Virus record (IMG/VR): IMGVR_UViG_3300008450_000135 | Coordinates: 1 to 38,630 of that record | Strand: one strand, 5' to 3' | Length of the DNA stretch: 38,630 bases | Origin: a virus | Shown here: one piece after another, positions 9,871-22,318 of the stretch | Position numbering within the stretch: position 1 is the first letter of the stretch | How the letters are laid out: the number at the start of each line of letters is the position of its first letter | Notes under the pieces: generated by a model | Database searches by the model: none | What the model saw: the letters and a program-made list of their open reading frames with translations, nothing else | Told to the model about the DNA's origin: nothing | Made by a program: the position numbers and the translations under genes

Positions 9871-9882
9871 TACGGTGGACTC

Positions 9883-10017
9883 ATGCGAGAGCGTATCCTT
9901 AACTGCGAATTCTGTGACATCGAATGGCCCTCCTCCACCGGCCGTAACTGCCCTGAATGTGGTCGTAGGGGAGTGGAAGAAGATGAACCAACCCGAACCC
10001 GATTCCCCGCCGACTAG
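9883..10017 (+). CDS. small zinc-ribbon-like protein, 44 aa
   Basis: The ATG lies 13 nt after the phosphoesterase stop. The product begins MRERILNCEFCDIEWPSSTG and has two CxxC pairs (CEFC and CPEC) spaced 12 residues apart, the arrangement of a zinc ribbon, followed by RRGVEEDEPTRTRFPAD. It overlaps the next gene by 35 nt in another frame. Conserved cysteines spaced this way are unlikely by chance, so I favour it as real. It may bind nucleic acid or a protein partner. It is one of several Cys-rich mini-proteins in this early region. Confidence 0.6.
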   Translation: MRERILNCEFCDIEWPSSTGRNCPECGRRGVEEDEPTRTRFPAD

Positions 10018-10258
10018 CTACCCCATTGTCCGAATCGTGTGGGCTGATGCCCATTGTGGTGATTCAGGCTGGCTGGAGCTGGACAACGTTGAAGACGATG
10101 GAGAGATGCTGATCACAACTGTCGGGTTCCTGATACCTCCAGGTGAAGGTGGCAAAGAAGGCCACATCACCCTGTATCAGACCTACACAGATGGTGAAGG
10201 TATCCACCCATTTTTCATCCCAATCGGGATGGTTCGAGAAACCAAATTATTGACTTGA
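9983..10258 (+). CDS. hypothetical protein, 91 aa
   Basis: ATG 9983 follows AGGGGAG by about nine bases. An upstream GTG at 9875 would overlap the zinc-ribbon gene entirely and gives a low-complexity N-terminus, so it is rejected. The product starts MNQPEPDSPPTSYPIVRIVW and looks like a small beta-barrel: WADAHCGDSGWLELDNVEDD and LITTVGFLIPP. It ends FFIPIGMVRETKLLT. It is compact and soluble, resembling small phage proteins of unknown function. Its stop lies within the promoter motif of the recombination operon. Confidence 0.6.
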   Translation: MNQPEPDSPPTSYPIVRIVWADAHCGDSGWLELDNVEDDGEMLITTVGFLIPPGEGGKEGHITLYQTYTDGEGIHPFFIPIGMVRETKLLT

Positions 10259-16158: not shown

Positions 16159-16333
16159 GTTCACCCGCTCACACCCTGACTGCACCCATTGCGGAACCAT
16201 CCAACGTGCAATGACAATTTGGCCACCTGAAGTACATAAAGAATGTGAATGCATATGTCACCAACATCGAAAAATAACGAGTTCGCCCCGGTCTGGTGGA
16301 AAGACAAAGCCGCGTGCAAAACGCTCCCGATAG
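16136..16333 (+). CDS. possible Cys-rich mini-protein overlapping the whiB-like gene
   Basis: A frame from TTG 16136 to 16333 encodes FEFTRSHPDCTHCGTIQRAM then VHKECECICHQHRK, with five cysteines and several histidines in zinc-site spacing. It overlaps the methyltransferase end by 23 nt and the whiB-like gene by about 85 nt, and no good ribosome site is seen, so it is uncertain. The Cys pattern in the non-overlapping part is the main argument for it. Confidence 0.35.
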   Translation: MDSIPLFEFTRSHPDCTHCGTIQRAMTIWPPEVHKECECICHQHRKITSSPRSGGKTKPRAKRSR

Positions 16334-16560
16334 AAGTCTTCTTCCCTGAAGAATCAGGAAACTCCAGCCCTCGTCTTTATGAACCAGGAAAGCAATTCTG
16401 TGATGGGTGCGAAGTCCGTGATATGTGCCTTGCCTTTGCCATGCACCACGAGAAAGATCAATGGCGCAGGTTCGGTTTATTCGGGGGCAAAACCCCCAAA
16501 GAACGCCTACAGCTCCATGCCGTTGACCCCCATAAAAACTGGCTCAAAGAATTTCCCTAA
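16249..16560 (+). CDS. WhiB-family iron-sulfur transcription regulator
   Basis: A 103-residue protein (or 101 if ATG 16255 is used). All WhiB landmarks are present: WWKDKAACKTL with the first Cys, FCDGCEVRDMC giving the C-x2-C-x5-C, and the beta-turn plus basic tail RRFGLFGGKTPKERLQL. WhiB proteins bind a 4Fe-4S cluster and the primary sigma factor, and are confined to actinobacteria and their phages. This is the strongest host marker in the window. As the last gene of its operon, just before the next TTGACTTGACAC promoter, it may act at these phage promoters or reprogram the host; the target is unknown. Confidence 0.92.
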   Translation: MHMSPTSKNNEFAPVWWKDKAACKTLPIEVFFPEESGNSSPRLYEPGKQFCDGCEVRDMCLAFAMHHEKDQWRRFGLFGGKTPKERLQLHAVDPHKNWLKEFP

Positions 16561-20194: not shown

Positions 20195-20235
20195 ACAGCA
20201 AGCCCCCAGCCCGCAAAGGTTGGGGGCTTCGCTGT
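20195..20235 (+). terminator. terminator hairpin ending the third early operon
   Basis: AAGCCCCCA (20200-20208) pairs with TGGGGGCTT (20221-20229), and ACAGC (20195-20199) with GCTGT (20231-20235), giving a long stem around a 12-nt loop. A U-tract is absent, as in the hairpin at 17991; both have GCTTCGCT at or near the right arm. Confidence 0.65.
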
Positions 20236-20258
20236 GTGCTAACTATTGCAAGCACCCC

Positions 20259-20287
20259 AAAAAAATTTTCGCGTGCCTTCGGCACGC
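20259..20287 (-). terminator. candidate intrinsic terminator on the minus strand
   Basis: Read on the minus strand, GCGTGC-CGAAG-GCACGC (20287-20271) is followed by GAAAATTTTTTT (to 20259), the layout of a Rho-independent terminator. It faces leftward out of the non-coding region. No minus-strand gene is visible to the right, so it would end an antisense or non-coding transcript, or block read-through into the early operon. Confidence 0.4.
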
Positions 20288-20349
20288 ACGATCCGTCACT
20301 ACGTGCCGGCTCTCAACCTCACCCTCACTACGTTCGGGCAAGGAAACAG

Positions 20350-20361
20350 CTCGCAAGCTCG
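20350..20361 (+). repeat. left copy of a 12-bp inverted repeat
   Basis: CTCGCAAGCTCG at 20350-20361 is the exact reverse complement of CGAGCTTGCGAG at 20722-20733. Similarity extends loosely further (a CGACcACACCA-like block beside each copy on opposite strands), so an older and longer inverted duplication is possible. The copies flank the skew switch. Confidence 0.6.
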
Positions 20362-20692
20362 CTTTGCCTCGCTCCCGCTCGACCACACCACACAATGCAC
20401 ACAGACCATCTAGGCGGTACACCTAGCACCCCGCAAAGTTTTTACTAATCGGCTGGTTGTAAAGCCGGTTGCCGACCGCACCCCCCTCTTTTGTCAACAC
20501 CTCCCCCATAAAAACTCTCACGCGCTACTGCAAACTACGTTCGCATCCGCTTGTGGCCTGCATCGCCAACACGTTGGCTCGCAGCACACCAACAACTGGG
20601 GGTCTGCCTCGTCACTCCCCGAGGGGTATATATATTACGTTGTTTGTACGGTGTCACTCTTTTGGTATTCTGATGGACAGGATGTTGTGTGC

Positions 20693-20872
20693 CGGGTTGG
20701 TGTGTCGATGTGTGAGCAACCCGAGCTTGCGAGGGGCGGTAGTGAAAGTGTTTGGCGGGGGGTTGAAGGGTGTTTGCTTCCCCCCACGCTTTCAACCGTT
20801 TTGTGGTTGCGGTGGCCGTTAGCTAGTTCTTTTAGCCGACACCGTGATGTTGTTGATCAGTTGACGTTGATC
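20693..20872 (+). ncRNA. candidate structured RNA with four consecutive stem-loops
   Basis: Perfect arms: CGGGTTG 20693-20699 / CAACCCG 20717-20723; GGTTGAA 20761-20767 / TTCAACC 20791-20797; CGGTG 20810-20814 / CACCG 20840-20844; GATCA 20855-20859 / TGATC 20868-20872. GGTATTCTGATGG at 20664 could hold a promoter -10 (TATTCT). Four neighbouring stems in a gene-free, G-rich stretch suggest a folded transcript. It could also be a set of protein-binding dyads. No known RNA family is recognised. Confidence 0.35.
20722..20733 (+). repeat. right copy of the 12-bp inverted repeat
   Basis: CGAGCTTGCGAG, exact reverse complement of 20350-20361. It lies just after the first stem-loop of the candidate structured RNA, sharing its last two bases. 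Confidence 0.6.
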
Positions 20873-21077
20873 TCGCTGCTTGAACCTCTGACGCAATAGG
20901 GGTCGTTGTATGTCTCGTCGCGGACTTGATTGCAGGGTTCATCTACCCCAGTTCCCTGGTGTGAATTGCCCCGTACCTTGCAACCGGTATACAGCCATGC
21001 TTGCCTTGACGCTTCCCAGCGTGGAGGTCTTGATCGTTTGCGTTGTTGAGTGTAGCAGGTGTTGTAGTGTTTTTGTT

Positions 21078-21242
21078 ATGAAGAAAAAACAAGTGTGGGA
21101 TAAACCGAATCCGAAGAAGAAGTCGACTCCGTTGACTGATAAGCAGAAAGCTTCTGCGAAGGCTCGTGCGAAGAAGGCTGGGCGACCTTACCCAAATCTT
21201 GTTGATAACATGGCCGCATCCCGTAGCAAAAAAGGAAAATGA
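21078..21242 (+). CDS. small Lys-rich basic protein, 54 aa
   Basis: The product starts MKKKQVWDKPNPKKKSTPLT, then DKQKASAKARAKKAGRPYPN and LVDNMAASRSKKGK. It is strongly basic and should bind nucleic acid. The family-like LVDNMAA ending appears in small proteins near phage terminases (from memory). There is no good ribosome site. Together with the next three genes it forms a basic-protein cluster ahead of the terminase. Confidence 0.65.
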   Translation: MKKKQVWDKPNPKKKSTPLTDKQKASAKARAKKAGRPYPNLVDNMAASRSKKGK

Positions 21243-21243
21243 T

Positions 21244-21603
21244 ATGCCTCAGGTTGGAAAGAAAAAGTATCCATACACGGAAGCTGGTATGAAGGCTGCG
21301 AAGATGGCCGCTAAAAAGAAGCCAGCGTCTGCAGCGGATTTCCGTAAAGCGGATCAGGCTTCAATTGTTAAGCAAGGTCCTTTGAACGCTAAGGACATGA
21401 AGGATTATTCAGCTATGCATAATGCGATTGCTGAAAAGGGCATGAAGATCGGCGGCGCAGCTGAAGGCAAGTATGTCCGTATGTACAACAAGTACAACAA
21501 GCCAGCAGACAAGATCACCGGTTCAACCTATATTGCGTTGAAGAAGGACTATCAGGCTCTTGTTGGTCTTCCAGCAAAGAAGATTGTTCGAAAGAAGAAG
21601 TAA
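21244..21603 (+). CDS. Lys-rich SAADFRK-motif protein, 119 aa
   Basis: The start is ATG 21244, one base after the previous stop; a longer frame to 21166 would lie in the previous gene. The product begins MPQVGKKKYPYTEAGMKAAK and contains PASAADFRKADQASIVKQ, the motif also present at 35684 (SAADFRKADQASMVKY) and in shorter form at 21606 and 21923. The C-terminal half has KYVRMYNKYNKPADKITGS and ends VRKKK. Strong basicity suggests DNA binding, perhaps packaged with DNA. Paralogue status is visible from the shared motif. Confidence 0.7.
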   Translation: MPQVGKKKYPYTEAGMKAAKMAAKKKPASAADFRKADQASIVKQGPLNAKDMKDYSAMHNAIAEKGMKIGGAAEGKYVRMYNKYNKPADKITGSTYIALKKDYQALVGLPAKKIVRKKK

Positions 21604-21605
21604 TC

Positions 21606-21920
21606 ATGGCTGCTAAGAAAGCTCCTGCTAAGAAGGCTCCAGCTAAGAAAGCTCCTGCCAAGAAAGCTCCTGCATCGGCGGCTCAGTTCCGCATGAAGGA
21701 AGAAGCCGACAAGAAGAAGATGGCACGTACTGACGCTCGTGGTAATTCCGGCATGGGTTTTTCGTATCCTCGTCAGGGCAAGGTCGACAGGTTTTGGGGA
21801 TCAACAGCTGGCAAAGCAGTAATCGCTACAAACCCTCTGTTGGGTGCTGCAGCTCTTATTAGTGCCGGCGAACGACGCGTTCGTAAGAAGCTCAACAAAA
21901 AGGCATATACTGACGAGTGA
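21606..21920 (+). CDS. histone-H1-like Lys/Ala-rich protein, 104 aa
   Basis: The N-terminus is a tandem AAKKAPAKKAPAKKAPAKKA repeat, like bacterial H1-type tails, followed by PASAAQFRMKEEADKKKMAR, a variant of the SAADFRK motif. The middle has a short hydrophobic patch (GKAVIATNPLLGAAALISAG) that may be a weak membrane or packing segment. It ends RRVRKKLNKKAYTDE. It could condense DNA or help loading of the capsid. The gene overlaps the next open frame near 21920. Confidence 0.65.
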   Translation: MAAKKAPAKKAPAKKAPAKKAPASAAQFRMKEEADKKKMARTDARGNSGMGFSYPRQGKVDRFWGSTAGKAVIATNPLLGAAALISAGERRVRKKLNKKAYTDE

Positions 21921-21922
21921 TT

Positions 21923-22318
21923 ATGGCCGCTAAGAAAATTGTCCCCAAGAAGGTAGCTCCTAAGAAGAAAGCTCTTTCAGCTGCTGATTTCCGTAAAAAG
22001 GAAGAATCCAGCAAGAAGAAGAGTGCTGATATCTCTTACGATGTCAGTACTCCTAATGGTCGTACTGCTTATGAGATTGCCAAGCAAGCCGGCGGTAAGT
22101 ACATGAACAGCCCGTACAACCGCACAAGCGTTGACAACCCTAAGGGTTATCCGGTTGGTAGCGATAGCTACTACACAAAAACAGGTGGTCGTTTCCGTGT
22201 GGCCGATAAGATCATGACTAAGGCTTATAAGGAAACTAAAGCCATGCTGGACAAGAAGTACCCTGAACTTTCTAAGCCAATCAAACCTTCTGTAACTAAG
22301 GCATCAAAGAAGAAGTAA
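21923..22318 (+). CDS. Lys-rich SAADFRK-motif protein, 131 aa
   Basis: ATG 21923 is taken; GTG 21917 is also in frame. The product begins MAAKKIVPKKVAPKKKALSA, then ADFRKKEESSKKKSADISYD. The central region (NGRTAYEIAKQAGGKYMNSP) and the Tyr/Gly-rich GYPVGSDSYYTKTGGRFRVA suggest a folded domain. The end is Lys/Pro-rich (KYPELSKPIKPSVTKASKKK). Third member of the basic family; probable nucleic-acid binding. The terminase frame begins 3 bases after its stop. Confidence 0.65.
   Translation: MAAKKIVPKKVAPKKKALSAADFRKKEESSKKKSADISYDVSTPNGRTAYEIAKQAGGKYMNSPYNRTSVDNPKGYPVGSDSYYTKTGGRFRVADKIMTKAYKETKAMLDKKYPELSKPIKPSVTKASKKK

Follow-up and report, generated by a model that had tools for sequence, protein, structure and literature searches.

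A putative structured non-coding RNA gene ahead of the late operon in a large group of uncultured phages

Lambda OOP RNA and ColE1 RNA II are leftward or origin-directed transcripts that lie near an AT-rich element, and ColE1 RNA II is strongly folded and contains a G-run. The pRNA of phage phi29, part of its packaging motor, is a non-coding RNA of a few hundred nucleotides, and GOLLD and ROOL are large structured RNAs of phages and prophages without known function (PMC12286853). The locus described here lies in a virus record of 38,630 bases, the whole stretch of DNA that was analysed, called the window hereafter, which encodes a terminase, a portal, a major head protein and recombination proteins. 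Its early genes, on the plus strand, stop ahead of a strong hairpin (20200-20229) and the first late ORF begins at 21078; the open frames within the gene-free region are mechanical. This region very probably holds the gene for a structured non-coding RNA, predicted from sequence comparison to be encoded on the minus strand.

As with GOLLD and ROOL, the RNA is phage-encoded, large and elaborately folded, with pseudoknot-like contacts and a gene of its own; it differs from both in lacking an Rfam match to either, in its shorter core, in not being near tRNA genes in the window, and in host group and genome position. Like phi29 pRNA, it is non-coding, phage-encoded and a few hundred nucleotides long, with virion genes close by, but it has no Rfam match to pRNA, occurs with unrelated terminases and is not part of a phi29-like genome. 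With lambda OOP RNA and ColE1 RNA II it shares the leftward course near an AT-rich element and, with the latter, the folding and the G-run; unlike in those systems, no origin has been demonstrated in the window, relatives carry second copies, and a C-run lies beyond the RNA on the non-template strand. Comparison with the covariance models of 4227 Rfam 15 families, which include GOLLD, ROOL, pRNA, group I and II introns, RNase P and tmRNA, gave no match, only chance-level scores below the gathering thresholds. Text searches of the literature found no description of such an RNA, which is weak evidence since the subscription literature is mostly outside their coverage. The original prediction had pointed to this region as a place for something not yet described, and a feature that is both undescribed and conserved in relatives is indeed what emerged. 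The elements of its proposed core, derived from pair counts and covariation, are the following.

20777-21042, minus strand: conserved core, comprising P8, P7, P6, P5 with its extension, P4, P2 and P1, then the G-run
20968-20995, minus strand: helix P7, with UUGCAA in the loop (20993-20995 with 20968-20970; 20986-20988 with 20975-20977, and neighbours)
20948-20959, minus strand: helix P6, CCAG-GGAA-CUGG, with a GNRA tetraloop, paired in all sequences
20881-20941, minus strand: helix P5 (20881-20886 with 20936-20941)
20893-20897 with 20929-20933, minus strand: extension P5x, in the window's clade
20855-20872, minus strand: helix P4, whose conserved loop contains AACG
20789-20844, minus strand: helices P2 (20810-20813 with 20841-20844) and P1 (20793-20796 with 20806-20809)
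20789 with 20814, minus strand: crossing pair beside P1 and P2
20780-20785, minus strand: G-run GUGGGGGG, invariant in alignments A3-A5 and on the core's 3' side

Model R1 matches the window at 20777-21004 with an E-value of 1.4e-53. In the window's clade (31 distinct sequences), 37 pairs are formed in 98.4% of the alignment cells and 21 of them show two-sided changes, as against only 31-41% of cells paired when the partners were slid by 1-3 columns as a control; the short-form clades (32 sequences) have 31 pairs, formed in 93.4% of cells, and 24 of these pairs show two-sided changes. The compensatory changes that keep a common fold stood out against shuffled, slid and tree-based controls. The alignments were made by sequence, and the structure was drawn from those same sequences. 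Twenty column pairs covary at E<0.05 (133 sequences; G-test with average-product correction) beyond a tree-based null, adapted in-house from a published approach, in which substitutions are redistributed on the tree; two of the 20 join neighbours of P6 and are not base pairs, and the rest fall in P1 and P4-P7, together with one crossing pair. Three inner pairs of P7 show two-sided changes and are paired in 31 of 31 sequences, but one P7 position is an invariant A-C on the minus strand, which counts against a structured minus-strand RNA. Single-sequence folding energies were uninformative and no better than those of shuffled sequences.

The strand is indicated by several features of the fold. 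In a loop-guided search, the P6 loop reads as GNRA on the minus strand in 127 of 128 recognised loops, the UUCC, UUUC, UUAC and UCCC of the plus strand corresponding to GGAA, GAAA, GUAA and GGGA; when perfect hairpins of 5 bp with 4-nt loops were counted without such guidance, 34 GNRA loops fell on the minus strand versus one on the plus strand. Wobble pairs agree: on the minus strand, the window's clade contains 58 G-U versus 6 A-C cells once one invariant A-C position is left out, whereas the raw counts of the first alignment (36 G-U versus 33 A-C) were nearly equal because of one invariant position that they include. At the 5' side of the RNA, again on the minus strand, a promoter-like TTGCAA-N17-TACACT carries TGC ahead of its -10 element, and TTGCAA is present as the -35 element in 41 of 136 loci; the -35 of the window itself is weak, and TGNTACNNT occurs only three times in the whole window. 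A plus-strand RNA was rejected, as loops, wobble pairs and promoter all indicate the minus strand, and the RNA would thus run leftwards, divergent from the late genes. A sigma-70-like promoter conserved in relatives is predicted for it, with the 5' end of the RNA predicted near 21042. The elements that surround the core are these.

21078-21242, plus strand: first late ORF, 54 aa, read from the sequence, divergent from the RNA and overlapping its -35 region
21049-21057, minus strand (reads 21057-21049): extended -10 element TGCTACACT, at the same place in relatives, mostly as TGCTACACT
20625-20776, minus strand: variable 3' domain, which differs between clades past the G-run
20598-20608 and 20627-20637, plus strand: GGGGGTCTGCC, then the AT tract TATATATATTA, a motif at similar spacing in many relatives
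20262-20288, minus strand: hairpin followed by A4U7, the next terminator-like hairpin of the window in a pattern scan, kept in loci L003 and L004

The 3' end is less uniform than the core. A U-run of at least six, 30-200 nt past the G-run, was found in 45 of 112 loci (A-runs in 21, and 12 in a control interval), and locus L140 has a hairpin with a long U-run; the window is without such a run. The RNA core measures about 265 nt, and the whole RNA about 400 nt where the U-run ends it. The hairpin at 20262-20288 is not a canonical terminator, because four A separate its stem from the U-run; it is possible that it terminates a longer minus-strand transcript of about 780 nt, so the RNA of the window may be about 400 or possibly about 780 nt long.

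The distribution of the RNA was established from 80 relatives among viral contigs, found via the terminase of the window; the same search of phage records returned only distant relatives, about 25% identical, including Streptomyces phages. At the DNA level, conservation extends over the right half of this gene-free region, but mostly not over its surroundings, in relatives whose terminase shares only about 70% protein identity. Profile and pattern searches found the RNA in at least 171 records, one copy each, some of these records being overlapping pieces of one and the same contig. A class I or class II RNA lies ahead of the terminase in 76 of the 80 relatives, and the RNA precedes the terminase in 87 of the 90 loci with enough sequence; L041, L052, L067 and L072 have neither class, L041 and L067 holding almost no upstream sequence. 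Class II, which occupies the same position in 24 further terminase relatives, has a similar flank and G-run and another core, and is likely homologous to class I. Class II examples upstream of the terminase include L023, L025, L026, L029-L031 and L038; their hairpin CUCACC/GGUGAG has the variants CCAACC/GGUUGG and CUCGUC/GACGAG.

The RNA is also present beside another, unrelated terminase in L086 and L194; as these are two mutually similar loci, the occurrence may represent one event. The L194 genome has none of the terminase, portal and head proteins of the window, and an SSB and a lysozyme-like protein are common to both. A second, weaker copy (E-values 1e-20 to 1e-22) occurs in three of 33 near-complete genomes, on the same strand as the main one and about 10.8 kb upstream of it, at L206 6772-6901 (G011), L209 11222-11381 (G013) and L210 10453-10578 (G008). 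These copies consist of the G-run, the hairpin and P5-P7 only, with P1, P2 and P4 not visible, and a TTGCAA-type promoter is present in G011 and G013. BLAST found no homologues in sequenced isolates, and phage and plasmid records yielded nothing similar; Streptomyces phage Immanuel3 gave chance-level scores only, and none of four pattern matches in bacterial genomes was confirmed by the profile.

A WhiB-like factor encoded at 16249-16560 points to an actinobacterial host, and the hosts of the related viruses are probably freshwater actinobacteria; cultured Planktophila phages are of similar size and carry a WhiB gene (PMC10202952). Two genome layouts were found, with early genes either co-directional with the late genes, as in the window, or divergent from them (e.g., L152, L117 and L180). 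A run of small lysine-rich ORFs lies ahead of the terminase (21078-22318) and has almost no match in relatives. A 127-aa protein (9875-10258) is present in 10 of 10 complete relatives compared, including one with unrelated virion genes.

The gene-free region had drawn attention by a strand-skew flip beside the terminase cluster, and a recount returned the same base composition (26 C and 7 G in 20461-20520; 27 G and 9 C in 20701-20760) and the AT tract at 20627-20637. The GC-skew and G+T flips at 20573-20639 are the largest of the whole window, with z of 4.4-5.3 for half-windows of 200-400 bases, which exceeds chance for this sequence. Near the RNA, 137 loci of relatives show a similar flip, with a mean GC skew of -0.27 on the left and +0.22 on the right, values biased by the choice of the flip point at a minimum. 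Some stretches of the C-rich and G-rich halves are complementary (e.g., 20350-20367 with 20716-20733), but no covariation was found in them. The left half was rejected as a second covarying RNA, its profile matching only five close relatives with no supported pairs there; two short motifs in it nevertheless recur widely in relatives. One has the conserved form GGGGGT(C/A)TGCC at 20598-20608, with the AT tract after it, and the element spanning 20598-20637 possibly serves as a late promoter that reads rightwards and is of an unfamiliar type. Relatives repeatedly show TAGGCGG (20411-20417 in the window) as well, in many cases about 165 bases to the left of GGGGGTMTGCC.

The skew flip had been proposed to mark a replication origin, with an extremum expected near 20630 on the genome scale; instead, the cumulative GC-skew minimum of the window lies near 26 kb, about 5.2 kb to the right of the RNA, and 20630 is a local extremum only. 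An origin could still involve the RNA, if the leftward transcript served as a primer or melted the double strand in the AT tract (20627-20637), aided by DnaA in some phages. Such a transcript would run into the conserved AT tract, the searched window proteins included no recognisable DNA polymerase, and the RNA region has about 26 times the density of perfect DnaA boxes TTATCCACA seen outside it (loci L014, L017-L021, L042, L103 and L114, often within the P1 hairpin). However, the boxes occur in only these nine loci and not in the window, several relatives likewise lack a skew extremum at the RNA, and three genomes have the second copy elsewhere, which makes this role unlikely. Timing of the late genes, by divergent transcription and by an RNA antisense to the late leader, is a rather improbable role: the RNA always directly precedes the late operon, whichever direction the early genes take, and beyond it comes a conserved promoter-like element directed rightwards, but antisense action needs complementarity, whereas what is observed is a conserved fold with GNRA loops, and a second copy is found at another site.

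The nearness of the terminase had also suggested a packaging site, a proposal that gained no support: in nine near-complete relatives the contigs end at scattered positions, between -3.9 and +19.8 kb relative to the RNA, and an unrelated terminase is preceded by the element as well. That the position reflects a signal acting in the DNA only, such as a pac, cos or terminal-repeat site, without any RNA, is highly improbable: two near-complete relatives (L002 and L028) do have contigs that end no more than about 400 bases from the element, but the other near-complete contigs end elsewhere, and a DNA-level site would not predict the compensatory changes or the GNRA loops and wobble pairs on one strand. 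For an RNA working as part of the motor, like phi29 pRNA, its place shortly before the terminase and portal genes would be fitting; yet it also accompanies an unrelated terminase, portal and capsid, so linkage to a single motor was not seen, and the one genome that lacks the terminase common to the other complete genomes (10 compared) keeps the RNA, which renders a motor role very unlikely.

The favoured reading is that of a structured non-coding RNA gene. The host RNA polymerase would start at the sigma-70-like promoter, which lies immediately outside the first of the late genes, and, in a transcription predicted from the promoter-like element, proceed leftwards to yield a highly structured RNA with a core of about 265 nt and a variable 3' domain. 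Acting in trans, this RNA would most likely target host machinery (the polymerase, the ribosome or some RNA-binding protein) and would not belong to the packaging motor of this phage. The presence with unrelated virion genes and the second copy with a promoter-like element suggest action in trans, and make the host a likelier target than the motor; a host-directed role in trans is proposed tentatively, at somewhat less than even confidence. It is also conceivable, though less likely than not, that the RNA is the founder of a new class, common to phages whose virions are unrelated and whose hosts are abundant actinobacteria, and that it either commandeers host machinery or builds an assembly of RNA only, in a way unseen in known phage RNAs. 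The cultured Planktophila phages might make the RNA experimentally testable. That almost all phages of this large uncultured group keep a strongly conserved and apparently undescribed structured RNA points to an important task, invisible to protein annotation.
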